A DNA stretch of 64,000 bases, taken from Magnetococcales bacterium (GTDB taxonomy: Bacteria; Pseudomonadota; Magnetococcia; Magnetococcales; Magnetaquicoccaceae). Each line of letters begins with the position of its first letter. Within the stretch, counting starts at the first letter, position 1. The notes beneath the pieces were generated by a model, which searched no databases, was not told where the DNA came from, and saw only the letters and a program-made list of their open reading frames with translations. Position numbers and translations under genes: made by a program. The stretch covers positions 1 to 64,000 of the forward strand of contig JADFYM010000002.1 of the NCBI GenBank assembly GCA_015233035.1, read 5' to 3'. Positions 47,637 through 64,000 of this stretch are shown here, piece after piece.

Positions 47637-48746
47637 ATGCTGCCATTATGTCGCCGGACCGGAATTGTAAGAGTTTTTTTGGTTTTCCTGCTGTTGACCG
47701 GGGTGTTGAGTCCTTTTTCCGCCGATGCGACCACCAAACACCGTCGATCCACCCATAAGCATCAAAGATCTTCCCACTCGTCGAACACATTTCGTCCTGG
47801 TAAATTCGGGTCCAAGCACCAAAAAGCAGGCCGGACTCGTTCCGGTGGATTGAAAATGGCCAGGCATTATCGGCCTGCGGTGGATGCCTCGGCCAATTAT
47901 GCCGATCTGGTGATCGACACCAGGACAGGCCGCGTCCTGCATGCCACCAGCCCGGACGAACTGCGTCATCCGGCCTCTCTGACCAAGATGATGACCCTCT
48001 ACTTGGCATTCCAGGCCCTGAAGAGCGGCCAACTGCGTCTGGACCAATATTTGCCGGTCTCGCAGAATGCCGCTGGCCAGGAACCTTCCAAATTGGGGTT
48101 GCGGGCGGGCCAACAGATTCGGGTCGAAGATGCGCTGCTGGGACTCGTGACCAAATCGGCCAATGATGCGACGGTCGTGGTGGCTGAGGCCCTGGGTGGC
48201 ACCGAGGAGCAGTTTGCCCGCATGATGACCAACAAGGCACGGGCGTTGGGGATGAGCCACACGGTCTTCCGCAATCCGTCCGGTCTGCCCAATCCCGAGC
48301 AGGTGACCACGGCGCGGGATATGGCCATTCTGGGTTATGCCCTTGTCTATCATCACCCGCAATATTATCCCTATTTCAGTCGCGATGGCTTTACCTATGC
48401 CGGGGTGCATCACCACAACCACAACCATTTGATGAGCCGTTACCGGGGGATGGATGGCATCAAAACCGGCTATATCCGTGCTTCCGGGTTTAATCTGGTG
48501 GCCTCCACGGTACGCGGTCCGACGCGGTTGATTGGCGTGGTCTTTGGCGGTCACTCTGCCGTGGCCCGGGACAACAAAATGGCTGCCTTGCTGGATCAAG
48601 CCTTTGCCCAACTGCACAACGGCCAGGCGTTACAACGGATGGCCTCTGCCGATGATGGTGCGACGGATTATGTGGCTGTGCCGGAGAAGGAACCGACCGT
48701 TCTGCCCGTGCAACATATCGCAGTGGCCTCACGCGGTGGCTTATAA
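47637..48746 (+). CDS. D-alanyl-D-alanine carboxypeptidase (S11 family penicillin-binding protein)
   Basis: A 369-residue exported serine peptidase that trims the terminal D-Ala of peptidoglycan stem peptides. A signal peptide (GIVRVFLVFLLLTGVLSPFSADA) is followed by a basic His/Ser-rich linker (about 32-70) and the catalytic domain. Motifs are SLTK (Ser114, Lys117), SAN and KTG (GIKTGYIRASG). The C-terminal PBP5 beta-domain is reduced. ATG 47637 gives a normal signal peptide; a TTG at 47589 is possible. Without the membrane-anchoring tail it is probably soluble or loosely attached. Confidence 0.92.
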   Translation: MLPLCRRTGIVRVFLVFLLLTGVLSPFSADATTKHRRSTHKHQRSSHSSNTFRPGKFGSKHQKAGRTRSGGLKMARHYRPAVDASANYADLVIDTRTGRVLHATSPDELRHPASLTKMMTLYLAFQALKSGQLRLDQYLPVSQNAAGQEPSKLGLRAGQQIRVEDALLGLVTKSANDATVVVAEALGGTEEQFARMMTNKARALGMSHTVFRNPSGLPNPEQVTTARDMAILGYALVYHHPQYYPYFSRDGFTYAGVHHHNHNHLMSRYRGMDGIKTGYIRASGFNLVASTVRGPTRLIGVVFGGHSAVARDNKMAALLDQAFAQLHNGQALQRMASADDGATDYVAVPEKEPTVLPVQHIAVASRGGL

Positions 48747-49188: not shown

Positions 49189-50733
49189 ATGTCCATCTCG
49201 GTATTGTTTTTGGAGGATGACCAAGACATACTGGATCTATTGCTACCAGAATATCGGTCTCTCGACTACACGGTTTATCAAGCCCTCTCTGGTCATGAAG
49301 CCCTGGCGATTCTCCAGGCACACCCCATCGACATTCTCGTGACCGTTCTGCACACACCGGACATGGATGGACTGACCTGGATCCAACAGGCCATCGACCA
49401 GAAAAACGATTTGCAAATCATTCTGATGTGTACCCTGGAGGATCGCTTGTTGGCCGTGCAGGCGATGGCCCATCACGCTGTCATCGCCGTGCAAAAACCG
49501 GTGCATCGGGATGAACTCCGCATCCACATGGAACGGTGCCGTGAGATCAAGAAAACCCAGAAAACGCTGCGCCAGAAAGAGGCGTTGCTGACCATTGAGG
49601 CAATGGACCTCAAGCAGGCGGAAAAAATAGCTGAGCGGGCATTGACCATCCGCATCGCCATCAGTGCGCTGCTGGAAACCAGCCTGGAACCGCTCTCGCT
49701 CGAAAAACATGTCGCAGTAATCCTGGAGATCATTCTGGCGGTGCCCTGGCTCTCCGGTTTGCGCATGGGGGCACTGTTCCTGATGGATGAAATAACGGGC
49801 ACCCTCCAGATGGTCGGTCAGAAAAATTTACCCGAACCGCTGCTGACGCTGTGTGCCGAGGTACCACTGGGAAAATGTCTGTGTGGCCAGGCGGGACAGT
49901 CTCATGAACTGATTTTTACCGATCAGGTGGATGCACGGCATGAAATTGGTTTCGCTGCCATGACACCACATGGCCATTATTGTGTACCGATTGTCAACAA
50001 GGAACGTCTGCTCGGTGTATTGTGTCTGCACATGCCCGCTGGCCATCAGCACAAGCAAGACGAAGACGCCTTGCTGAGCACGATCAGCAACACCCTGGCA
50101 CTCATTCTCGAACACCGGCGCACCGAGTCTGATCTCCGCAAGGCGGAAGAACGCCTGCGCTTCATGGCCTACCATGATCCGCTGACCGGCTTGCGCAATC
50201 GCCAATTTTTTGATACCGCGTTCGGCAAGATATTCACCATTCTGCAGAATGTCGGTCGCCGGCAACACGAACGCCCGTTCCAGGGAGCCTTTTTGGCCAT
50301 GCTGGACATCGACCATTTCAAGAAGGTCAACGACACCTACGGCCATCTGATGGGCGATGAGGTGTTGGTCCTGTTTGCCCGCATCATGACCGAGTGTTTC
50401 CGGGACAAGGATGCGACCTTTCGCTTTGGCGGTGAGGAGTTTGTGGTCCTGTTGAACGACATCTCCCCGGAAACGGCGGAGGTGGTCTTGAACCGTTTTC
50501 GCAAGGCCGTCGAGTCCTATGCGTTTCCCCAGGTCGGGCGGGTCACGGTCAGCATCGGTGCCGTGCAGATTGAGGCCGGGGAACTGGCGGGCACCCTCAT
50601 CGAGAAGGCCGACCTGGCCCTGTACCACTCCAAGAGCAATGGCCGCAACCAGGTCAACTTATACCATATGCTGGTGGCAGCCGGTCATCTGGAGGCGGTC
50701 AGCCATGGAACGGAAGAGATTGATCTATGGTGA
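49189..50733 (+). CDS. REC-GAF-GGDEF diguanylate cyclase
   Basis: A 514-residue protein that probably makes cyclic di-GMP. The N-terminal receiver domain (1-120) has Val53 where the phosphoacceptor Asp should be (DILVTVLHTPDMDG), although the switch Lys is kept (AVQKPV). A GAF domain follows at about 170-320, with CGQAGQ and YCVPIVNKERLLGVLCL. The GGDEF domain (345-510) has the intact active site GGEEF (414-418). Its inhibitory site RDKD (405-408) is exactly five residues upstream. The GAF domain is thus the more likely sensor. It converges on the next gene, with a 9-bp overlap. Confidence 0.9.
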   Translation: MSISVLFLEDDQDILDLLLPEYRSLDYTVYQALSGHEALAILQAHPIDILVTVLHTPDMDGLTWIQQAIDQKNDLQIILMCTLEDRLLAVQAMAHHAVIAVQKPVHRDELRIHMERCREIKKTQKTLRQKEALLTIEAMDLKQAEKIAERALTIRIAISALLETSLEPLSLEKHVAVILEIILAVPWLSGLRMGALFLMDEITGTLQMVGQKNLPEPLLTLCAEVPLGKCLCGQAGQSHELIFTDQVDARHEIGFAAMTPHGHYCVPIVNKERLLGVLCLHMPAGHQHKQDEDALLSTISNTLALILEHRRTESDLRKAEERLRFMAYHDPLTGLRNRQFFDTAFGKIFTILQNVGRRQHERPFQGAFLAMLDIDHFKKVNDTYGHLMGDEVLVLFARIMTECFRDKDATFRFGGEEFVVLLNDISPETAEVVLNRFRKAVESYAFPQVGRVTVSIGAVQIEAGELAGTLIEKADLALYHSKSNGRNQVNLYHMLVAAGHLEAVSHGTEEIDLW

Positions 50734-53172
50734 TGACATCCTGAGCAGGCGCAAGCCCAGATAGAGAAACCGATGGCTCGGATCATCGACAAAACGATTG
50801 GCCGAACGCGCACCGGCCGGGACATTGTACCAACTGCCCCCTCGTATCACCCGACCGGAACCGGCAGACGGTCCCTGGGGATTTGCCTGGGGGGAACGGC
50901 CATAATAGTGTTCGTCATACCAGTCCGCCACCCACTCCCAGACATTGCCGCTCATATCGTACAAGCCCAACCCATTGGGCCGCTTCTGCCCCACAGGGTG
51001 TGTCAAGCCGCCACTGTTGCTGGCATACCACGCCACCCGGTCAATGTCGTCCCCCCCCGCATACCGTTCCTTTCTCCCGCCACTCCGACAGGCATATTCC
51101 CATTCAGCCTCCGTCGGCAACCGATATTTGCCCTCGCCCCGGTCGTTCAGCTTTTTGATGAATTGCTGCCCATCCTCCCAGGAGACCTGCTCGACCGGAT
51201 AATCGTCCCCCTTTTTGAAGTAGGATGGATTGCTCCCCATAATCTTTTGCCACTCGCCTTGCCGGACGGGAAATTTGCCCAACCAGAACCCATCCAGTTG
51301 AACTTCATGCACGGGTTTTTCGTCACGCCGTCCATCGCCAAACAGATCGCCCATCTGGAACGTGCCTTCCGGGACCCAAACAAACACCATACCCGTCAGC
51401 GGACAACACCACTCGCCCCGGAGCGGCACCTCCTCGCTCCAGTCATTCTCGACCGGCACGGTTTGATGCGGGATCGGCAATTCCCAGAAATGTGCCTCCA
51501 TGAAAAAGGCCCTGTGCCGAATATATTTCAAGGTTGGCAATTCTGAAAACATTTTTTCCAAATGGACCTGTTGGAACAAATGGAGCACATTCTGCTCCTC
51601 GCTCTCTACCACCCGGCATTTTTCCAGATACCATGCATCCAGTTCTCTCACCCGTTTTTCCAGTGCTTCCTCCACCCCTTTGTGTTTGGCTTGCGCCTCA
51701 GACAGGGCATTGGATAACAGATTGATCTCTCTTTCCAGCTTGTTTTTCTCATCGTCAAAGAGCATATCATCCGTCTTTTTTTGGGCCGAGAACAGCCAAG
51801 CCCAGAATCCCATCTGCTCTCCCTGGTGCGGGATCTCCTTGTCGCGCACCCGCTGGGCCAATTCTGTCTGGATATGGCCCTGTGTTTTGGCCAGATTTTG
51901 CCGATCCTGTTCCATCAGGTTGGAGATGTCCTGTTTTTCCTGAGCGATGCGCATGGCCAGGGTCTGTTTCCCCTCGGCGGCCCAGGAAAACCATTGATCA
52001 CATTTTTTGATCTGCACCAGAAGGGTATGCAAATCCTGTATATCAGCCAATCTCTGGCCCATATCGGCATATCCCTCTTCCCGGCCCTGAATGGCAGCGG
52101 CTTCCTGCTCCAATTGCAGCAAAATCTCCTTCAACACCGGATGCCACACCACCGCCTCGGTCTGCCGCAAAACCTGCCTGCATTCATCCAACGCCGCCGC
52201 CAGGGTGCTGGCACGTTGTTGCGCCAGAGAGGCCAACCAGGAAAACACCCGTTCCTGCACCGGAGCCAAGACCGGCTCCACGGCGGCCCGGGCAAAAAAA
52301 CGGCCATCCAGGTGAATCGCCTGCGCCAGCCCATGCCACGCCTCCTCCCACAGATCGACCAGGGCGGCATAACAGGCCGAGAGGAACAACTGCTCAACGG
52401 CTTGACTCTTTTCATAAGCACGACGGGCAAACGCATAAGCCTGTAGAGGATCGGCCTGCGCATAGGCAACCCGCGACATGGCCCACAGGGTACGGGCCTG
52501 CGCCCCCTTGTCCAGCCCTTCCGGCAGCGTCAACGCCTTGTTGAAAAACAACAGGGCACCCGCCTCATCCTCCTTGCGTATGGCGATGTAACCCAAATTG
52601 GTCAACACCTGATAATCGGTGCTGTCCCGCTTCAGGGCACGCCGAAAGCGTTGTTCCGCCTCCTGGTATTCACCATTGACATAATGGCGCACACCTTGCC
52701 GGAGCAATCGTTGCACCGCATTGGTCTGATGTTGGCAGGAAATGCCCAGAACGGTTTCCGGGGTGCCCCCGCCCCCCCCTTGTTGTGCCACCCACCATTT
52801 GATTTCCGCCAGTTCAAAGCACAACGCCCTTTCCTGGCCGAAGAGAAATTCGGTCATCTCGTTGGGCGTCGAGGCCATGCCCTGGATCGTCTCACTGGCA
52901 ACGGTATCGATGGCATTGGCCAGGATTGCCGCTTGCTGCGCCACTTCTGCCGCAACCTGTTTGGCTCCGGCCACGCCGCTTGCGGCCATGGCCCGACTCG
53001 CCGCCTGTTGTGCAGCAATCTGCTGGCGCACCAGAGCAATCATCCTGTTCTGCTGTTCGGCACCATCAACCGGCAGCGCGTCGATGCTCTGCGTCTCCAT
53101 CTGCTCCCCGTCACCGGACACCCTCTGTTCGGCCAAACCATATGTATACCGCTCCCACAACGATGGCATGTC
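50725..53172 (-). CDS. TPR / coiled-coil protein with a C-terminal FGE-sulfatase (SUMF1) domain
   Basis: An 815-residue protein. An Ala/Gln-rich helical N-terminus is followed by TPR-like repeats (about 165-320, e.g. VNGEYQEAEQRFRRALKRD). Then comes coiled coil (about 400-540) and a formylglycine-generating-enzyme fold (585-815) with MVFVWVPEGTFQMGD, YRLPTEAEWEYACR, NVWEWVADW and VIRGGSWYN. The paired catalytic Cys of true FGE is missing, so a binding rather than catalytic role is likely. ATG 53172 has GGGGAA upstream; GTG 53196 does not. It follows the TAXI gene by 13 bases. Confidence 0.85.
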   Translation of the reverse strand, partial: DMPSLWERYTYGLAEQRVSGDGEQMETQSIDALPVDGAEQQNRMIALVRQQIAAQQAASRAMAASGVAGAKQVAAEVAQQAAILANAIDTVASETIQGMASTPNEMTEFLFGQERALCFELAEIKWWVAQQGGGGGTPETVLGISCQHQTNAVQRLLRQGVRHYVNGEYQEAEQRFRRALKRDSTDYQVLTNLGYIAIRKEDEAGALLFFNKALTLPEGLDKGAQARTLWAMSRVAYAQADPLQAYAFARRAYEKSQAVEQLFLSACYAALVDLWEEAWHGLAQAIHLDGRFFARAAVEPVLAPVQERVFSWLASLAQQRASTLAAALDECRQVLRQTEAVVWHPVLKEILLQLEQEAAAIQGREEGYADMGQRLADIQDLHTLLVQIKKCDQWFSWAAEGKQTLAMRIAQEKQDISNLMEQDRQNLAKTQGHIQTELAQRVRDKEIPHQGEQMGFWAWLFSAQKKTDDMLFDDEKNKLEREINLLSNALSEAQAKHKGVEEALEKRVRELDAWYLEKCRVVESEEQNVLHLFQQVHLEKMFSELPTLKYIRHRAFFMEAHFWELPIPHQTVPVENDWSEEVPLRGEWCCPLTGMVFVWVPEGTFQMGDLFGDGRRDEKPVHEVQLDGFWLGKFPVRQGEWQKIMGSNPSYFKKGDDYPVEQVSWEDGQQFIKKLNDRGEGKYRLPTEAEWEYACRSGGRKERYAGGDDIDRVAWYASNSGGLTHPVGQKRPNGLGLYDMSGNVWEWVADWYDEHYYGRSPQANPQGPSAGSGRVIRGGSWYNVPAGARSANRFVDDPSHRFLYLGLRLLRMSSP

Positions 53173-53185
53173 AAGAATTCCCCTT

Positions 53186-54124
53186 TCAATACCCACTGAG
53201 ACAATGCGACCTTAAAAAGTTTTTGCCACTGTTGTCCACATACTCGAAATCCACCTTCTGCCATTGCGCATGACCATTGGTTCGCAGCCAGAGAAGATTT
53301 TTTTTCAGAACATCCGAAAATTTAATTAATCTTTGGCAAACAGGCATATCTTGCACATAATCATAGGTGGCCAACAGGACCTTGACAGAGACCGTCTGGA
53401 CCGCTTCTTTTTGCCATACATAGGTATTGACTGGGATTTCAGCGGGCATATAAACCGGATCAGCATGGGTAAGCACCACGGGGAGCAGGTGGTACCCTTT
53501 ATTTTCCAACGATTGCAGCAGCACCACCGGATAACCGGAGACCATGGCCACGGCATCGACCTCCCCGGCATACAGTTTGGCCAAAGCCTCCGCACCGGAG
53601 ACAGGTATCGACTCAACCTGAATATTTTCTTGTTGAAAAATATTGCCCATGGTCAGGAAAGCACCCGATTTTTGTGCCCCCGTCGCCACTTTATGCCCCC
53701 GCAACTCTGTCAGGGAACGAATGCCCTGCCGTGCCACGATTTGCACCATTTCATCGTAGAGAGGATAATATGTCCTGACCTTCACCAAAAATTTACGCAT
53801 ATTATTGCCCGGACGATCACTCTGTCTGAGGCGACCCGCAATCCAGGAGGGGATATCCGCCTGCACAAAGGCCATATTGACCTCATCATCGTTGACAATA
53901 GACATCAAATTGTCCAAAGAACCCGCCGAAGGCTTGACGATAATATCAAACCCGTACATCTGGCCCAGCCTTTTTAAATCATCACTGAATTGGTGATACA
54001 CCCCATTGGCATCGCCAGCGACCAGAACCAGCTGACCGTTGGGAAACGGCACCTCCGCCCTGGCAGCAAACGGTTCCGCTGTCATCGCGAGCAACAACAA
54101 GAAGAATCCGCACCACACGCGCAT
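53186..54124 (-). CDS. TAXI-family solute-binding protein
   Basis: A 312-residue exported protein. A signal peptide with core FFLLLLAMTAEPFAARA is followed by a periplasmic binding fold of the TAXI (NMT1_3) group. Landmarks are LVAGDANGVYHQFSDDL, GSLDNLMSIVNDDEVNMAFVQADI and AGEVDAVAMVSGYP. TAXI proteins normally feed TRAP transporters (often glutamate-like or C4 substrates). Here no TRAP permease is adjacent, and the partner gene encodes a TPR/FGE-fold protein, so a sensing role is possible. Confidence 0.87.
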   Translation of the reverse strand: MRVWCGFFLLLLAMTAEPFAARAEVPFPNGQLVLVAGDANGVYHQFSDDLKRLGQMYGFDIIVKPSAGSLDNLMSIVNDDEVNMAFVQADIPSWIAGRLRQSDRPGNNMRKFLVKVRTYYPLYDEMVQIVARQGIRSLTELRGHKVATGAQKSGAFLTMGNIFQQENIQVESIPVSGAEALAKLYAGEVDAVAMVSGYPVVLLQSLENKGYHLLPVVLTHADPVYMPAEIPVNTYVWQKEAVQTVSVKVLLATYDYVQDMPVCQRLIKFSDVLKKNLLWLRTNGHAQWQKVDFEYVDNSGKNFLRSHCLSGY

Positions 54125-54171: not shown

Positions 54172-54366
54172 TTATGTAGATTTTGTCTCTTTGTCCGGCG
54201 TAAAATGCACGGAGGCAATCTCGTCCATAATGTCTTTGGGCATCACCAGTGTGGCATCGGTTCCCTCTTCGTCCTCTTCCTCTTCTGCATCATCATCCAT
54301 ACGCTCAGCTTGATTGAGATCACCGTCTGTGCTTTTCCTGTTGCTTGTCATCCATTCTTCGCCCAT
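54172..54366 (-). CDS. Small acidic protein with a DATLV motif
   Basis: A 64-residue protein. A strongly acidic middle (MDDDAEEEEDEEG) runs directly into TDATLVMPKDIMDEI. ATG 54366 is preceded by AAGGGGAT, a good ribosome-binding site. The family was not recognised. The DAT-Leu/Val segment matches motifs at the N-terminus of the FHA protein at 56131 and the tandem repeats at 63872. It may therefore be a phosphothreonine target of the divergently encoded kinase (inference). Confidence 0.6.
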   Translation of the reverse strand: MGEEWMTSNRKSTDGDLNQAERMDDDAEEEEDEEGTDATLVMPKDIMDEIASVHFTPDKETKST

Positions 54367-54502
54367 AATTATCCCCTTGTGTCCATTTTTTTCTACCGTA
54401 GGTTGGCTGTGTTTCCAACACAACGGCCATTTAATCGCTGATATTCTTTCGAGAAGATTCTATTTCTCGCAAGGTTGTCCGCACCAACAACCAATCGATC
54501 CC

Positions 54503-55924
54503 ATGATAAACACACCCCTTTCCCTTGTCACCGGTTTTTTGCAGACACTGGACGGTTTTTGTGATCTGGATGCACAAGGACTCCGTGCCGTCGCGGCAGA
54601 GTGCCCGGTCAAATCCTTTGCCCCGGAGGAATACCTGATGCGCAAGGGGGAGGCGGGGGATGTCATGTATATTCTCATGGATGGCCAGGTACGGGTGCCG
54701 GTTACCGACACAACGGGCGAGATTTTATCGACCCTGCTCCTGGGACCACGGGAGGTGGTAGGCGAAATGGCCCTGCTGACCGACGAACCACGCCGCGCCG
54801 ATGTGATTGCCTATACCGCCGTGTCGGCCCTGGCCATGGAAAAAAAGCAGATGGACCACCTGCTGCATCGGTACCCCTCCTGGGCCAATTTTTTGACCAG
54901 CATCCTGGTCAAACGCATCCAGTCGGTCAACGGCTTCCAAAAAATCGGCAAATACCAGTTGCTGAATGAACTGGGGACCGGCAGTACCGCCCGGGTCTAT
55001 GATGGCATCCATCAATACCTGGGACGCCCCGTTGCCATCAAAATGCTCAACCATGCCCTGGTCTATAACGACCTGTTCCGCGAACGCTTTGAGACAGAGG
55101 CCCGCATTATTGCCGGGTTGTCCCATCCCAATATTATCCAGGTTTATGATACAGAGCAGATGCATGGCACATTCTTTATCATCATGGAAAAACTGCCTGG
55201 CAACGACCTGAAAAAAATGCTCAAGCGGGTCAAAAAATTTCCCCCGGAAGAGGTGATTCTGATTCTCCATCAGGTGGCCCGCGCCTTGGAGTATGCCCAT
55301 CAGCAGGGCATTTTGCACCGGGATGTCAAACTCGCCAATTGCATCATGACCGAGAGCGGTCAGGTAAAACTGATGGATTTCGGCTTGTCCCAGCCGCGTG
55401 GCGTCTCGGAGACAACCCATATCGAGGGATCGCCCGAATATCTGGCCCCGGAAATCATCCGTGGCGCACCGCCTGATGAGCGGTCCGATATTTATGCGTT
55501 GGGCATCATGGCGTTTGCCCTGTTGACCGGCCGCTCCCCGTTTTATGCCAAGAGTGTACGAGAGGTATTGGTCAACCACCTCAACAAACCCGTGCCCGAC
55601 ATCGCGGCTCTGGTCCCTGGCATCCCCAAAAAATTGTTGACCTTTATCCAGGGCACCTTGACCAAGGATCCCGGCCAGCGTCTGGCCCATTGGCCGACCA
55701 TTTTTTCTCTGCTGGAAAGACGCGGCACCCGAAAAAGTGCCGACCAGACCATCCCCACCTCTCCCGCGTATCACTCCCTTGTCCTGACCTGTCCGACGGC
55801 ATCCTCCCCCCTCCTGCTGGATGCCCTGCAGCAATTGGCAACCCGCATCAACGGCCTGACCTGGTCCGATGCCAGCCAACCGGGTGCAGAACCCGACCGG
55901 GACAGCAGCATAAAAACAGTGTGA
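54503..55924 (+). CDS. Serine/threonine protein kinase with N-terminal cNMP-binding domain
   Basis: A 473-residue soluble protein. Residues about 10-130 form a CAP_ED domain with an intact phosphate-binding cassette VVGEMALLTDEPRRADV. Residues 150-410 form a Hanks-type kinase: glycine loop ELGTGSTARVYDG, Lys180 in VAIKML, HRDVKLAN (His272-Asp274), DFG from Asp292 and the APE motif YLAPE. This layout parallels eukaryotic cGMP-dependent kinases, suggesting control by cyclic nucleotides (inference). ATG 54503 is chosen because upstream codons overlap the divergent small gene. FHA-domain genes follow. Confidence 0.9.
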   Translation: MINTPLSLVTGFLQTLDGFCDLDAQGLRAVAAECPVKSFAPEEYLMRKGEAGDVMYILMDGQVRVPVTDTTGEILSTLLLGPREVVGEMALLTDEPRRADVIAYTAVSALAMEKKQMDHLLHRYPSWANFLTSILVKRIQSVNGFQKIGKYQLLNELGTGSTARVYDGIHQYLGRPVAIKMLNHALVYNDLFRERFETEARIIAGLSHPNIIQVYDTEQMHGTFFIIMEKLPGNDLKKMLKRVKKFPPEEVILILHQVARALEYAHQQGILHRDVKLANCIMTESGQVKLMDFGLSQPRGVSETTHIEGSPEYLAPEIIRGAPPDERSDIYALGIMAFALLTGRSPFYAKSVREVLVNHLNKPVPDIAALVPGIPKKLLTFIQGTLTKDPGQRLAHWPTIFSLLERRGTRKSADQTIPTSPAYHSLVLTCPTASSPLLLDALQQLATRINGLTWSDASQPGAEPDRDSSIKTV

Positions 55925-56038
55925 TCACAAACAAACCGTCATGCCATGTGACCGTTTTCCCCGGACACCCCCTTTCTCCTGTCTTTTGGCACCAACCGGA
56001 TTTTGTCGGGCAGGACCGCCTTCACCATCGCCTATCGG

Positions 56039-56067
56039 TTGACAACGACCATCAACTCTGCTGTCAT
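56039..56067 (+). promoter_or_regulatory. Possible sigma-70 promoter before the FHA gene
   Basis: A perfect -35 TTGACA and a -10 TGTCAT are separated by 17 bases. An upstream TGn gives an extended -10. The FHA ATG lies 64 bases downstream of the -10 box. Confidence 0.4.
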
Positions 56068-56130
56068 CTGCTCCATCCAGGAGGATGCGGAAAGGGTAGA
56101 GAACCAAACAGCCTTTGACAGGATTATTTT

Positions 56131-57492
56131 ATGACAGCGGATGAAGATGCCACGGTGATGATGGGCCACAACGTGGTGGAAGAGAAGGATGACGATGCCA
56201 CGCTCATGGTGGGCCAGGCGGTGGGTGGCCGGATCAATGGCGGTTTACCACCCCCCCCCAAAGCCAGGCTGGTTTGTCTGGATGATACGCTGCTGGATCC
56301 GAAACAGAAGGGACTGGTGATTGCCCTGGACGGGGGCGTCCACATTCTGGGGCGCAACCCGAACAACACGACGGATCCCATTCTCTATCAGGGCGTCTCC
56401 AGCAGGCACGCCCGCCTGTTCACTGCGCAGGATAAATGGGCCATTGAGGATCTGCAATCCACCAACGGCATCTGGATCAATGGCGTGCGCGCGGAACATG
56501 CCTTTCTGGTACCAGGCGACTTGGTCAAAATCGGGGCGATTCCCTTTCAATTCATACTGGCAGACCCGGCGCATCCTGCCCCGGTGGTGACGGCCAGCGG
56601 GGATGAGACCATGGTCCTTGGCGGGGAAGGTGGGCACGCCGATGCGGCCAGGCGGATTGTGGAACTGCCTGCCATGGCCCCAGCGGAAAAGGCCATGGCC
56701 GAAGAGAAAAAGGGGGCGGCGGTCAGGACCAATGCGGCCAACCCACTCTCCAGGAACGCATTGACGGGGACGCAGACGTCCCCACCCCAAAAATCCAGCA
56801 AAAAAATCCTGCTGTTCGCGCTGCTGTCGGTACTGCTGGTCGGGGGCGGCCTGGGGGTATACCTGCTCCAGAAGGGACCGGGCGGCAGCGACAAGGTGCA
56901 GTTGCATCAGAAAGAGATCAAACAGTTTTCCGACGCGCACGAAACCGCCAAGGGCACCCTCTCCCAGGAAGCGTTGCAGGCACAAGTCGAACAGATCGGG
57001 ATCCTGCTCCAACCCCTGTCTGCCGATGTGGAACACTATCCAGACAATCAGGAATTGAAGGAATGGTTGGTCCGGCTGCGCTTTCTGCTCCTGGAGCGGC
57101 AGTTTTTGCTCCTCGCACAGGCGGGAAAGTTGCAACAAGTGGAACCCATGCTCCGTGATCTCGTGGCATTTGTGTCAGCCGATTGGACCAGAACCTCGCT
57201 CAAGCAGACCTGGCTGAAAGATATGCGGGGCGTGCTGGACCTGGTGCAAGGGGTCGCCACAGCGAAACAGTTTCGTCAGCAATATCCCCAACCGTCCAAA
57301 ACGGCCCCGGATCGTCCCAGTCGGGACCAATTGGCGGCGATCAACAAGGTCAGCGAAAATATTGTGCGCCAGAAAAAAGATTCCGGGATCAATATTCTGT
57401 TGAGTGTGCAGTTTCCCCTGTTCGGGCACGTGGTTGCCCAGGTGGATGGGGAGGATTTGCCCACCATCCGTTTGTGGAACGAGTCTCTATAG
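56131..57492 (+). CDS. FHA-domain membrane protein with N-terminal DAT motifs
   Basis: A 453-residue protein. Two acidic Thr motifs open it: EDATVMMG (residues 5-12) and DDATLMVG. An FHA domain follows (about 45-135) with HILGRNPNN, VSSRHARLF and LQSTNGIWING, which bind phosphothreonine peptides. After a DETMVLGG motif and a linker there is one transmembrane helix (about 225-245). The C-terminal region of about 205 residues, probably periplasmic, is helical and unrecognised. Such proteins sense kinase output at the membrane. The kinase gene lies just upstream. Confidence 0.87.
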   Translation: MTADEDATVMMGHNVVEEKDDDATLMVGQAVGGRINGGLPPPPKARLVCLDDTLLDPKQKGLVIALDGGVHILGRNPNNTTDPILYQGVSSRHARLFTAQDKWAIEDLQSTNGIWINGVRAEHAFLVPGDLVKIGAIPFQFILADPAHPAPVVTASGDETMVLGGEGGHADAARRIVELPAMAPAEKAMAEEKKGAAVRTNAANPLSRNALTGTQTSPPQKSSKKILLFALLSVLLVGGGLGVYLLQKGPGGSDKVQLHQKEIKQFSDAHETAKGTLSQEALQAQVEQIGILLQPLSADVEHYPDNQELKEWLVRLRFLLLERQFLLLAQAGKLQQVEPMLRDLVAFVSADWTRTSLKQTWLKDMRGVLDLVQGVATAKQFRQQYPQPSKTAPDRPSRDQLAAINKVSENIVRQKKDSGINILLSVQFPLFGHVVAQVDGEDLPTIRLWNESL

Positions 57493-57692: not shown

Positions 57693-59816
57693 ATGGGGGT
57701 TTGCGTGGTCGTGCATCGATTCAAGAAAGGGTTCCAGATCGGCCTGTTGGCGATGATTCTGCTGGTGGTGGGGCTGAACGTCTGGGGTGGTTTTCCCCTG
57801 GCCTGGGCGGAAGAGTTGAAATGGAAGGAGGAAATTTTTGATGTCACCTTTGTCGATGCGGATGTCCGGGATGTGCTGACGGATGTCCTGAAGCGCAACG
57901 GCAAGACGGCGGTGTTTTTGCCGGGGGTGACGGGGACGGTCACCTTTGACTTTCGCAGCAATCCGATGCCCATTGAGGCCGCCTTCAACAAAATTCTCGC
58001 CGAAAACAATCTGACCCACATGTTTGATGCGGCCAACAAAGCAGTCAAGGTCATGCCCGCCTCCGCTTCGGCCATATCGGACGATCTTTTTACCCCCAAA
58101 TATTCCGATTTGAAAAGCATTCTGGATGCCTTCGCCCGGTTTGGTCTGGGCAGTGGGGTGACCATCACGGCGGATCATATTACCAACGTCTTGTTTTTCC
58201 ATGGCACGCAGGCCGATGTTGCCACGCTGAAACGGGTGGCAACCGAAATCGACGAGTCGATGCAAAACATGCAGGCGCGTCGGTTGAAGGATACGGAGCA
58301 GCAGTCGAAAGAACTGGAGCAGCAACGGTTGAAGCATTCTGTTTCGGTGGAGGAGCAGCGTGCACAATTGGAAAAAGACAAGATTGAGGATGAGCGGTCG
58401 GTGACGGTCGAGGTCATCCCGTTGCGTTATACCAGCGTGGCCCCTTCGACGACCTCGTTTCTGGGTGAAAAGATCACCCTGCCGGGTATTCTGGACTCGT
58501 TGCGGGCCTTTGTGGGACCGATCACGGTGTTGGATGCCAGCAAGGACGAGAGCGAGGATAAAGGGGTCAAGGAGGCCAAACATCCTGCCCCGACGGATAC
58601 CCGCAACAAACCGCTGGTCTCCGTGGATGTCCGCACCAATTCAATCGTCGTGCAAGGATCACCGACGCAGATCAAGCGGGTCGCCGATGTGGTCAAAAAG
58701 TTGGACAAGGAAGTGCCTCTGATCGAGATTGAGGTGATGGTGGTGGCGGGTTCGGTGGATACCTCCAAATCGTTTGGCGTCCAGTTGGGCGTGACCAGCC
58801 CGTTTGGGGCCAATGCCAATTTGTTGATACCATCGGACAAGGGTACCTTGACCAATCTGGGCTTCACACCCGCCAATCCTGCCACCAACCCAACCATTCT
58901 CCAGGATCAGTTCAATGTTGCGCAAGCGACCGATGCTCTCAACGCGGCCAAGGCGCGTACTGATGCGGGTGCGGGTGCTGCGGTCTCTGCCGCTCAGACA
59001 GCCATGAATGTCGCCAACGCAAACCTTGCCCATGCTACCGCCAATGCGTCCGTCTTGCCTACCAAGCAAGGTTTGGGTCAACTCATGTCTACCCAGGGCG
59101 GCTTGGGTGCCCAATTCCTGTATCGGGGCACACGCGAAGTGCTGGAATCGGCGATTACCGCCATGGCCAGCGATGGCAAGGCGCACAAGGTGGCCTCGCC
59201 ACGGGTGGTGACACTCAACAACCTGGCGGCCCATGTCAGCAACACGACCAAAATAACCAACCTGGCGGTCAATTCTGTCACCATAGGCAACCAGTCCTCG
59301 TCCAGTCAGGGCCAGTCTTCCTCCGCAGAGGCGGGCACTACTCTGGTGATCATCCCTTCGGTGATCAAGACGGAGGAGGAGGATGGTTCCCGTCTGGTGC
59401 GGATGAACATTGATGCCAAAAACACCGCGCTGTCACCCATCGGCGGTGGTCTCGTCCAGACCGATGGTCAGGGTTTGCAGACCAACATTATTATTCCTGA
59501 CGGGGCCACCTTTGTAATGGGCGGTTTATTCAACACCGTGCGCAACGAAAGCCATACCGGCATTCCGCTGTTGATGGATATACCGGTGGTGGGTAATCTG
59601 TTCGGCACCAAAAGCTCCGACGATCAAAAAACGGAGACGGTCTTTTTTATCACGCCAAAGGTCTTTTCCTACAAAGATATTGTCACCACCCAGGGTGTGC
59701 GGGCCAAGGATTATATAGAGGGCCAACGCTCTTCCTTGATACAGGAACAGAAAGGGTTGGAGAAAGAGAGCCAGCTTTTGTCTATGCCGCAGATGAAAGT
59801 TTCCGAGGACGAGTAG
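57693..59816 (+). CDS. Type II/III secretion or type IV pilus secretin
   Basis: A 707-residue outer-membrane channel protein. A signal sequence (to about residue 40, ending AWA) is followed by an STN/N0-like domain (FVDADVRDVLTDVLKRNG). A charged coiled-coil spacer occupies about 187-235. An N1/N3-like domain (VDVRTNSIVVQGSPTQIKRVADVV) precedes the C-terminal secretin domain, with SPRVVTLNNLAA and the signature GIPLLMDIPVVGNLFG (about 622-638). An Ala-rich insert (about 406-453) interrupts the secretin region. No ATPase or platform gene is nearby, so the exact machine (T4P, T2SS, MSHA-like) is not determined. Confidence 0.88.
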   Translation: MGVCVVVHRFKKGFQIGLLAMILLVVGLNVWGGFPLAWAEELKWKEEIFDVTFVDADVRDVLTDVLKRNGKTAVFLPGVTGTVTFDFRSNPMPIEAAFNKILAENNLTHMFDAANKAVKVMPASASAISDDLFTPKYSDLKSILDAFARFGLGSGVTITADHITNVLFFHGTQADVATLKRVATEIDESMQNMQARRLKDTEQQSKELEQQRLKHSVSVEEQRAQLEKDKIEDERSVTVEVIPLRYTSVAPSTTSFLGEKITLPGILDSLRAFVGPITVLDASKDESEDKGVKEAKHPAPTDTRNKPLVSVDVRTNSIVVQGSPTQIKRVADVVKKLDKEVPLIEIEVMVVAGSVDTSKSFGVQLGVTSPFGANANLLIPSDKGTLTNLGFTPANPATNPTILQDQFNVAQATDALNAAKARTDAGAGAAVSAAQTAMNVANANLAHATANASVLPTKQGLGQLMSTQGGLGAQFLYRGTREVLESAITAMASDGKAHKVASPRVVTLNNLAAHVSNTTKITNLAVNSVTIGNQSSSSQGQSSSAEAGTTLVIIPSVIKTEEEDGSRLVRMNIDAKNTALSPIGGGLVQTDGQGLQTNIIIPDGATFVMGGLFNTVRNESHTGIPLLMDIPVVGNLFGTKSSDDQKTETVFFITPKVFSYKDIVTTQGVRAKDYIEGQRSSLIQEQKGLEKESQLLSMPQMKVSEDE

Positions 59817-61159: not shown

Positions 61160-61798
61160 ATGACAATGATCACAACACGGGGAAATCTCCCTGTTCGGCA
61201 AGCACGTCGGGGTGAAGGGGGCTTTACGCTGATCGAATTGATGGTGGTGGTGGCCATCATTGCCATCCTGGCGTCGATTGGGATACCGAAGATGACCGCC
61301 TTTATCAAAACATCGGAAACGGCTGAGGCTGTGGAACAAATGGGGAGAATCTCCCAGGCCTTGCGCGGCTACATAGACAGTCATCCGAGCATGACCACCG
61401 CTGATGTTGTCACTGCCCTGGCCAGCAACAACGCGCTGACGGCCCAGGGGTCCACCAATATTGGTGTTGGCAGCCTGTCCACCCTGATTCCGCATCTCAC
61501 ACTCGCCAGTACGGCAAAGTTTAACTATGTGGCCAATGTAGCGGCGGTAAGTGCGGACAGCACAGTGGCTCCCGGCGTGAAAAAAGATGACCTGGCAATC
61601 TGTATCGAAGCACGCAACGCCACGACGGATACGGCGACCACCAATAAGGCCGGTTTGATCTGGTCCTTGATCAAACCAGTAGCCAATGCTTCCTTATGGG
61701 AAGAAAACGTTTACCGCTCCTCATATGTTAACAACAATTTGACATACCAATCCGGCGGTGAATGCTCGGCGGCTGGCGCGGCACAAGATCCCTCGTAA
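61160..61798 (+). CDS. Type IV prepilin / type II pseudopilin-like protein
   Basis: A 212-residue prepilin. A basic leader ends EGG and is followed by the mature start FTLIELMVVVAIIAILASIGIP, with Glu at position 5. PilD-type peptidase would cut after the last Gly. The globular C-terminal part contains two Cys (CIEARN, GGECS) that could form a disulfide. AAGGGG precedes the ATG. It shares the cluster with the secretin, but no pilus ATPase, PilC or PilD gene is visible. Confidence 0.9.
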   Translation: MTMITTRGNLPVRQARRGEGGFTLIELMVVVAIIAILASIGIPKMTAFIKTSETAEAVEQMGRISQALRGYIDSHPSMTTADVVTALASNNALTAQGSTNIGVGSLSTLIPHLTLASTAKFNYVANVAAVSADSTVAPGVKKDDLAICIEARNATTDTATTNKAGLIWSLIKPVANASLWEENVYRSSYVNNNLTYQSGGECSAAGAAQDPS

Positions 61799-61845: not shown

Positions 61846-63408
61846 ATGAGCAATGAAGAACGGTACACCGAGTGGAAGGAGGTTGGTCAGGGGGCCTTTG
61901 GCTCGGTGTGCCGGGCCTATGACACCCTCCTGAAACGCAACGTCGCCATCAAACTGCTCAAGCCCGAACATGGCAACAACCGACAGTTGGTCGAGGCTCT
62001 GCAACAGGAGGTGATCATCTCCCGGGATTTGCGTCATGAGTGTATCTGTCCGATCCATGATGTCTATCGGGGGGAGCGTGGCGTCGGTACGGTCATGGAC
62101 TTTATCGATGGCATGGAACTGAGCAAGTGGCAAAAGATCAACCGGGGGCGGTTGCTGGATACCGCCCCGGAACGTCTGGAACTGTTTCGCAAACTGTGCG
62201 ATGCCTTGGCCTTTGCCCACACCCATATTGTCCATCGGGATCTGAAACCGGACAATATTTTTCTGCTCAAAGGCGATCCAACCCGCCCGATGATCATGGA
62301 CTTTGGCACGGCGGTCGTGGGAGCCGCCGCCGATGACGCCAACATTGCGGGGACGCCCAAATATATGTCGCCCGAGCAGTGGAACACCCCCGATGCGGTG
62401 GATCAGCGCGCCGATCTCTTCGCCTTGGGCATTATTGCCTACGAACTCTTTACCGGTCAGGTGCCGCCGACTTCGTTGCGCTATGTGACCAAAACCAAAG
62501 TACCACCCAAGGTGGATTTGGCACTCATCGACAAACCGAGCCAGTATTGCGCCGCTCTGCCCGCCGATCTGGATCGGATTATCATGCAGTTGATGGCCTA
62601 CAACCCGGTGGATCGGCCCCAATCCGCCCGTGATGTGGCGATCGCCTTGGGCTATGTCAAACTCAAGCAGGGCGATCTGCTCGCGGGCGTCGGGCAGGCC
62701 TCCCAGGCCACATTGGCCGCCAACACGGTCCTGATACCGGGGGGCAGCTTTTATCTGGGCTCTACCCAGCAACAGCCCGGCAGCATGGCCCACGAGCGAC
62801 CGCGCAAAAAGATACGCCTCTCGCCGTTCCGCATGGCGATCTGTCCGGTCACGGTCGAGGAATATCGGCAGTTTGTGCAATCCACCGGCTTCACGGCCCC
62901 CGCCTCGCTGGACGATCCGTTGCTGGGTCGGGATGAACAGCCGGTGGTCGGGGTCAGTCATGCGGATGCCCTGGCCTATGCCCGTTGGGCGGGCGGAAAT
63001 TTACCCAGCGAGGCCCAATGGGAATTTGCCGCCAAGGGAGGAGCCGCCTTTCCGCTCTACCCCTGGGGAGACACCCCCACCACCCCCACTACGGCCAATA
63101 TTAACGGCGTCTCCAGTACTCCGTCGCCGGTGGGCAGTTGTCCGGCGGGGGTCAACCCGTTCGGTCTGTTTGACCTGTGCGGTAACGTCTGGGAATGGTG
63201 CCTGGATGTCTGGGATCCCAACTATTATGGTCTGTTGCAGACTGATGCGCTGGATCCGGTCTGTCAGTCCAACGGCGCGGAGCGGGTGTTGCGCGGTGGC
63301 GCATTTGACAGCTTTCCCAGTCAAGGCCGCTGTTCCGCCCGATTTCATGCCTCCCCGGAGGTGCGCAATCGTGCCTTTGGCTTTCGTCTGGTCTTTCCGG
63401 CTGAATAA
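61846..63408 (+). CDS. Serine/threonine kinase fused to an FGE-sulfatase (SUMF1) domain
   Basis: A 520-residue protein of the 'Pkn1' type. The kinase domain (1-265) has the glycine loop VGQGAFGSVCRAYD, Lys36 in VAIKLLK, HRDLKPDN (from His130), MDFGTA and YMSPEQ. The FGE domain (about 292-520) has VLIPGGSFYLGS, LPSEAQWEFAAKGG, CGNVWEWCLDVW and VLRGGAFDSF. In the final segment only one Cys (GRCSARF) replaces the paired catalytic cysteines of FGE, so binding is more likely than Cys oxidation. There is no transmembrane segment. It precedes an FHA-domain gene. Confidence 0.9.
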   Translation: MSNEERYTEWKEVGQGAFGSVCRAYDTLLKRNVAIKLLKPEHGNNRQLVEALQQEVIISRDLRHECICPIHDVYRGERGVGTVMDFIDGMELSKWQKINRGRLLDTAPERLELFRKLCDALAFAHTHIVHRDLKPDNIFLLKGDPTRPMIMDFGTAVVGAAADDANIAGTPKYMSPEQWNTPDAVDQRADLFALGIIAYELFTGQVPPTSLRYVTKTKVPPKVDLALIDKPSQYCAALPADLDRIIMQLMAYNPVDRPQSARDVAIALGYVKLKQGDLLAGVGQASQATLAANTVLIPGGSFYLGSTQQQPGSMAHERPRKKIRLSPFRMAICPVTVEEYRQFVQSTGFTAPASLDDPLLGRDEQPVVGVSHADALAYARWAGGNLPSEAQWEFAAKGGAAFPLYPWGDTPTTPTTANINGVSSTPSPVGSCPAGVNPFGLFDLCGNVWEWCLDVWDPNYYGLLQTDALDPVCQSNGAERVLRGGAFDSFPSQGRCSARFHASPEVRNRAFGFRLVFPAE

Positions 63409-63475
63409 CCGTTCCATGGCCGAAAGGATGATCAAGGCGGTCTGAAACAATAACTTTGCCCCAGGTAGACGTGTG

Positions 63476-64000
63476 ATGACTGTTGCCGATTGTCTCTATT
63501 TCCAAATTCATGACTCGTCCGGGCAGATCACAGAACTGGCCAAGGAGGGTTCCAGCATCGTCATTGGGCGGCGGTCCAAGGTGGGCACCCGTCTGGCGGA
63601 TCTGTTTGTGGACGATCAATATGTCTCCCGTCGGCACAGTCGGGTATTTCGCAACCCAGAGGCCCCCGACCAATGGCTGCTGGAAGATATCGGCAGCAAC
63701 AACGGAACCCGGCTGAGTGGAGTTCCGGTCACGGCGGCAGTACCGATTGAAGAGGGGGCGTGGATTCAAATCGGCACCACCCGCCTCACCTTCAGCCGTC
63801 AGCCCAAATATGCGACACAAGAACCGGAAGCGGCAGCCACCGTTGTCGCGCCCGTTTTATCCATCGATGGCGATGCCACGGTGGTGCGCCCGCGCGATAC
63901 CGACGCCACAGTGGTGCGCCCCCGGGAGGAAGATGCCACGGTGATGCGTCCCCGCGATAGGGATGCCACGATAGTGCGTCCTCGGGAAGAGGATGCCACG
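63476..64000 (+). CDS. FHA-domain protein with tandem DAT repeats (3' end outside window)
   Basis: The frame opens at ATG 63476 and is still open at the right edge (175 codons seen). An FHA domain covers about residues 1-110: IVIGRRSKVGTRLADLFV, VSRRHSRVF and EDIGSNNGTRLSG keep the phosphothreonine-contact Arg, Ser, His and Asn. From residue 133 the chain consists of 10-residue repeats, DAT[VI][VM]RPR[DE]x, four complete and one partial. Each has one Thr in an acidic context, a plausible kinase site. The gene follows the kinase-FGE gene by 67 bases. Confidence 0.85.
   Translation, partial: MTVADCLYFQIHDSSGQITELAKEGSSIVIGRRSKVGTRLADLFVDDQYVSRRHSRVFRNPEAPDQWLLEDIGSNNGTRLSGVPVTAAVPIEEGAWIQIGTTRLTFSRQPKYATQEPEAAATVVAPVLSIDGDATVVRPRDTDATVVRPREEDATVMRPRDRDATIVRPREEDAT
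63872..64000 (+). repeat. 30-bp tandem coding repeat (DATVxRPRxx)
   Basis: Four full 30-bp units and 9 bases of a fifth, starting at 63872, 63902, 63932, 63962 and 63992. Each begins with GATGCCACG or a near match. Third-position differences between units (GAC/GAT, ACA/ACG, CGC/CGT) show that selection keeps the peptide and not merely the DNA. The array continues beyond the window. Confidence 0.9.

Follow-up and report, generated by a model that had tools for sequence, protein, structure and literature searches.

A conserved acidic threonine motif linked to FHA proteins in a type IV filament-like gene cluster of a Magnetococcales bacterium: a candidate phosphothreonine switch

The window analyzed in this study is a stretch of 64,000 nucleotides from a magnetotactic-type Magnetococcales bacterium (C222:1-64000; the genome comprises 4.5 Mb in 434 contigs). 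An open reading frame for an acidic protein of 64 amino acids lies on the minus strand at 54172..54366, with an AAGGGG sequence of the Shine–Dalgarno type upstream of its ATG that was rated a good ribosome-binding site. The plus strand carries genes for a Ser/Thr protein kinase with a cNMP-binding domain (54503..55924; Pfam cNMP_binding and Pkinase), a membrane FHA protein (56131..57492; FHA domain at 56344..56535), a secretin (57693..59816; Pfam Secretin), a pilin-like protein (61160..61798; N_methyl) and a Ser/Thr protein kinase with a fused FGE-sulfatase domain (61846..63408). Directly 3′ of the latter, in an order that is repeated in the related loci L089 and L090, is the gene for a GspE/PilB-like ATPase with a fused FHA domain, which occupies 63473..64000 of the plus strand (FHA domain at 63557..63775) and continues to 66130 on the contig. 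The complete ATPase has 885 amino acids (C222:63473..66130), with the FHA domain at residues 29–101 and the T2SSE domain at residues 487–879 (Pfam). Although the sequence-only reading arranged these genes around one kinase, the cluster thus contains two, with Pkinase E-values of 3.1e-55 and 1.9e-35 and with HRD and DFG visible in the translations; a third Ser/Thr kinase of the contig (C222:85013..85789, in L002) lies about 19 kb beyond the FHA-ATPase.

The secretin, the N_methyl pilin-like proteins, the motor ATPase, a GspF platform protein and an ExeA-like ATPase are the parts of a machine of the T2SS/type IV pilus superfamily. The canonical equivalogs were not reached (NCBIfam bits/cut-off: PilQ 166/284, GspD 125/351, GspE 495/630, PilB 484/676), and since both the secretin and the motor ATPase fall under every curated NCBIfam cut-off, the cluster is regarded as a divergent member of the superfamily.

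Three proteins of this cluster, the 64-residue protein, the membrane FHA protein and the FHA-ATPase, carry a motif that approximates [D/E]-x-T-[V/I/L/M]-[V/M/L]. In the small protein it reads TDATLVMP (the D codon of DATLVMP is at 54258, minus strand). In the membrane FHA protein, two copies stand N-terminal of the FHA domain, DATVMMG within DEDATVMMG (56146..56166, plus strand) and DATLMVG within DDATLMVG (56194..56214, plus strand), and one stands just C-terminal of it, DETMVLG within GDETMVLG (56602..56622, plus strand), which has counterparts in relatives. In the linker of the ATPase the motif forms a tandem array of DATVVRPR units with a 30-bp period (63872..64000, plus strand), which extends beyond the window, where DATMLHP comes next; there are nine motifs in total, comprising eight DAT[VI][VM] units and a last one of DATML, and at the DNA level the array is a 30-bp tandem repeat of 7.6 copies with 81% match. 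The copies quoted by the sequence-only reading, in the small protein, at the start of the membrane FHA protein and at the right edge of the window, are all present in the translations; its account of the membrane protein was correct for two copies and overlooked the third, GDETMVLG at 56602.

The extended form [DE]xT[hydrophobic][hydrophobic]x[PG] occurs in three of the 19 genes of the cluster, namely the genes of the two FHA proteins and the 64-residue protein only. Its background is seven per 79,881 residues of crude gene calls, a figure that is not understated because the background set takes in loci fetched for holding the DAT pattern. Common descent of the three motif genes was considered and ruled out, as the likeness ends at the motif core. 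No earlier description of the motif or of the cluster was found in the open-access literature.

The genome was searched with the DNA pattern GAYGCNACNNTNRTN, followed by reading of the stretches around the matches, in place of a full proteome scan; the pattern demands Ala before Thr and V, I or M at +2, so that DATML and non-Ala variants are missed. There were 53 matches in the 4.5-Mb genome, compared with 16 for the reversed control: 11 in the cluster, one at 48165 in a D-alanyl-D-alanine carboxypeptidase-like gene and 41 on other contigs. When read, these 41 proved to lie in housekeeping and other unrelated proteins, in frames that look noncoding and in a dispersed repeat (seven matches). 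The repeat is found on contigs C33, C177, C216, C266, C401, C404 and C420 of the same genome (G000) and translates as HAREGGHPGEF[VM]DAT[MI]IK. The contigs of these 41 matches contain no kinase or FHA match, and no strict DAT match occurs on those of the six other kinases and the five other FHA matches, which rules out the motif as a general mark of kinase neighbourhoods. The enrichment near Ser/Thr kinase and FHA genes envisaged by the sequence-only reading therefore holds for this cluster and fails at the other six kinases and five FHA matches. One of the five other FHA-match proteins has the looser ELTIMGG; it is FHA proteins, and not kinases at large, that the motif accompanies in this genome. 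A PP2C phosphatase gene adjoins that of a cyclase-like FHA protein with EEELTIMGG before its FHA domain (L049, L121; C35:7450..9068).

The association was also examined in 42 other FHA proteins of the phylum, 39 of which have a detectable FHA core. Ten motifs were observed near the core, compared with 1.9 expected; they are not independent, because six or seven of them belong to one family of short FHA proteins, in which a motif of the [DE]KTM type follows the FHA domain. Most of the sampled FHA proteins lack the motif, and the notion of a universal FHA companion motif accordingly holds only partly. The motif is a recurrent companion of FHA domains, neither peculiar to the cluster nor universal.

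The membrane FHA protein was aligned with eight relatives (24–57% identity). In the N-terminal tail the sole invariant residue in the nine sequences is the threonine of the DATLMVG motif, Thr24 of the window protein, which is replaced in none of them by Ser, Val or Asp; the tails read MTQGKKEDATMMVG, MSGKEDQTVMMG, MAAEEEMTMMEG, MSEEELTMMG and MSQEENETLLIG. The pocket residues Gly74, Arg75, Ser90, His93, Asn112 and Gly113 are likewise invariant in the nine sequences. In a PDB search the FHA domain matched GarA/OdhI structures, one of them labelled Rv1827 pThr22, and the second-best match was the FHA domain of Rv1747 (6cah). The motif of the small protein is kept in three genomes, those of the window, L097 (EEDATLNML, ETDATMIMP) and L119 (DTDQTMVL), and in L097 and L119 its gene occupies a divergent position beside the cNMP-kinase, as it does in the window; this recurrence of motif and position supports the 64-residue reading frame as a real gene. 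No FHA domain was found in the small protein with Pfam.

The linker of the ATPase behaves similarly. Strict motifs number nine in the window, four in L107 (the same sequence as L089), nine in L109, four in L110 (the same sequence as L090) and seven in L111, all of which are FHA-bearing ATPases; 0.07–0.34 are expected in shuffled linkers, and the observed count was reached in none of 5000 shuffles for each of the five. Outside the linker, the motif is absent from these five proteins. The equivalent region of two ATPases with no FHA domain in the reading frame, L112 and L115, contains one motif and none, respectively, and L113, a divergent FHA-bearing ATPase, has no strict motif; the association of motif and FHA domain is strong but not perfect over the eight ATPases. 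The repeat spacing is ten residues in the window, 18 in L107/L089 and approximately 14 in L110/L090, so that the core has been kept while the repeat units changed. In the ATPase FHA domains the pocket positions G-R, S-R and N-G-T are invariant, and His is replaced by Gln in two relatives. The structure prediction for the linker, made from a two-sequence alignment (mean pLDDT 42), contains no secondary structure, and at this pLDDT the model informs little beyond an unstructured linker. The close named relatives of the FHA-ATPase are metagenome-assembled genomes of Magnetococcales.

These comparisons bear directly on whether the likeness might be a coincidence, in which low-complexity acidic tails and a tandem repeat made by slippage happened to produce DATV. 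The ATPase array is indeed a tandem repeat in the DNA, acidic tails are biased in composition and the reversed DNA control still yields 16 matches. Nevertheless, the shuffled linkers are far poorer in motifs than the real ones, the core persists in relatives whose repeat units are of other lengths, the threonine of the membrane protein is invariant and the small-protein motif is found in three relatives. Coincidence is already contradicted by the linker-shuffle comparison, and we regard it as very improbable. The claim that otherwise unrelated proteins share a selected motif is thus borne out by its conservation in orthologues.

The genes fall into two modules. Module A consists of the cNMP-kinase, the small protein and the membrane FHA protein, and module B consists of the kinase with the FGE-sulfatase domain, the FHA-ATPase, GspF and the pilins. 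The two are separable: in L089 the secretin is preceded by a gene with no relation to module A, and in genome G042 the modules lie on different contigs. The neighbour of the membrane FHA protein in several relatives is a large exporter that combines cNMP-binding, C39-peptidase and ABC domains (Pfam, L097). That two separable modules have the core in common speaks for a shared function rather than for linkage. The residues at +3 and +4 after the threonine are mostly M/L/V followed by G in module A and mostly R/A followed by P in module B; these instances were collected by hand and the module counts are descriptive only. A common modifier, as suggested in the sequence-only reading, is plausible, as both kinases keep their catalytic motifs and adjoin motif proteins in relatives. 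However, given the two separable kinase modules and the differing residues after the threonine, one modifier for all of the proteins is no more than a candidate, and the separability likewise leaves any kinase–target pairing as a candidate.

FHA domains bind phosphothreonine. The computed features, namely a conserved motif that is associated with FHA domains, the conserved pocket residues and the adjacent kinases, indicate a real, selected and FHA-linked motif, which is most simply read as part of a phosphothreonine–FHA switch in a type IV filament-like machine. As relatives keep the motif while the surrounding sequence changes, it is probably a phosphorylation tag. We infer phosphorylation, kinase–target pairs, binding and an effect on secretion along the following lines. 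The Ser/Thr kinases of the cluster would phosphorylate the DAT threonine, and the FHA domains of the secretin-side membrane protein and of the ATPase would bind the phosphothreonine in trans and perhaps in cis. Because the linker of the ATPase has many copies, the membrane protein a few and the small protein a single one, the switch would be multivalent; phosphorylation might thereby recruit or cluster the motor at the secretion or pilus complex, with the 64-residue protein as a ligand that competes or bridges. On balance, we consider it rather probable that DAT serves both as a phospho-acceptor and as a docking site for FHA domains, and so gates or clusters the secretion motor. A more specific form, in which the ATPase, the membrane FHA protein and a dedicated 64-residue ligand would be condensed or cross-linked by kinase activity, the copy number tuning the threshold, is put forward only tentatively. 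Counted against a switch are the ATPase L113 without a strict motif, the lack of the motif in most of the sampled FHA proteins, the contig without a PP2C phosphatase (C222 has none, and the genome's two PP2C_2 matches fall on C103 and C35), the separable kinases, the differing residues after the threonine and the change of His to Gln in two ATPase relatives.

A different arrangement would be a cis switch of the GarA type, in which each FHA domain would bind its own phosphorylated tail and be shut off, so that the motif would link no different proteins. The motifs closely flank the FHA domain on both sides in the membrane protein and closely follow it in the ATPase, the FHA domain of the membrane protein matches GarA/OdhI structures including Rv1827 pThr22, and the kinase-target motif of GarA is N-terminal of its FHA domain (PMC12321487). 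However, a cis lock has no need of up to nine copies, and the 64-residue protein bears the motif without an FHA domain, so that at least its copy must act in trans; we consider an exclusively cis arrangement to be unlikely. The motif might instead be a docking element for the FHA domain or another partner that is independent of phosphorylation, with the kinases acting elsewhere. While this would fit with a motif that follows FHA proteins and not kinases generally, the threonine is invariant in nine membrane proteins, as that of a phosphothreonine ligand would be, the FHA pocket residues are conserved and, in a tested counterpart, the unphosphorylated peptide DLPTVVEI of TssL failed to bind Fha (PMC3953482). 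Docking of this kind appears less probable still than the cis arrangement.

The proposed phosphothreonine–FHA switch has its nearest tested counterpart in PpkA–TssL–Fha of the T6SS and its nearest architectural counterpart in the FHA-fused ATPase KilF, in both cases by analogy. In the T6SS of Agrobacterium tumefaciens, PpkA-dependent phosphorylation of Thr14 of TssL yields the peptide DLPpTVVEI, which is bound by the FHA domain of Fha (PMC3953482). Both systems have a Ser/Thr kinase, an FHA protein and a secretion component, in TssL with the target threonine in a cytoplasmic tail, and the TssL peptide resembles the DAT motif in its T-V-V core and upstream acidic residue. The machine differs in being T2SS/type IV pilus-like, with a motor ATPase that has an FHA domain and a motif array and with putative phosphorylation; as there is no PP2C in the cluster, it is taken to work like the T6SS TPP switch without being a member of that class. 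KilF of Myxococcus xanthus is an FHA-fused hexameric ATPase that clusters at contact sites (PMC8460266). At the level of architecture, Kil is likewise a machine of the type IV filament family with an N-terminal FHA domain on a T2SSE-family ATPase and with other FHA proteins, but it is Tad-like, whereas the ATPase here is GspE/PilB-like, and the text of PMC8460266 nowhere uses the word `kinase'.

Rv1747 of Mycobacterium tuberculosis is an FHA-bearing exporter with a disordered linker, condensation of which is promoted by the kinase PknF (PMC9312465). It resembles the cluster ATPase in combining FHA with a linker, here predicted to be unstructured, and its FHA structure (6cah) resembles the membrane protein; it differs in being an ABC transporter with two FHA domains. 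GarA/OdhI also has a kinase-target threonine motif (ETTS) N-terminal of an FHA domain (PMC12321487), but it is a metabolic regulator that binds enzymes, with other motif letters, no array and no secretion machine; the OdhI equivalog scored 29/200 bits, and the tail motif is of the DAT[VL] type, with no ETTS there. Chlamydial CdsD, an FHA-bearing protein of the secretion apparatus, is phosphorylated in vitro by the Ser/Thr kinase PknD (PMC2765968); it belongs to a T3SS, and the phosphorylated residues are Ser and Tyr inside the FHA-2 domain. The kind of control proposed here is thus already known; what is unusual is that one motor ATPase bears both the reading domain and a series of candidate ligands.

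Bacterial secretion clusters commonly encode FHA domains, but, to our knowledge, the ligands of these domains are rarely known. Here the sequence itself yields a candidate FHA-ligand motif, in which the threonines are conserved and the copy number forms a natural series from four to nine. It thus becomes directly testable whether T2SS/type IV pilus-like motors are under kinase control, and the motif can also be used to search other Pseudomonadota for FHA partners.

Several neighbouring genes also deserve mention. A TAXI-type solute-binding protein, identified by eye, is encoded at 53186..54124 on the minus strand, co-directional with and 48 bp 3′ of the small acidic reading frame; a relative of it also adjoins the cNMP-kinase in L097 and L119, and the protein may provide the kinase with sensor input. 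Beyond the TAXI gene, the protein encoded at 50725..53196 (minus strand) has a C-terminus that by eye is FGE-sulfatase-like; the second kinase (61846..63408, plus strand) also has a fused FGE-sulfatase domain (Pfam). An HlyD-like protein (L097:4470..5348) contains ETKTMFGSG, which resembles the motif of the membrane FHA protein; it apparently lies past the membrane segment and would therefore be out of reach of a cytoplasmic kinase. Finally, a protein of no known family (L001:5237..5827; C222:67236..67826) has an acidic threonine tail, EDDTTRALDEDDTTRVEVG, with DDDYTRTIDNDSVTRCEVG in its L089 orthologue, which constitutes a second, different acidic threonine motif within the cluster.
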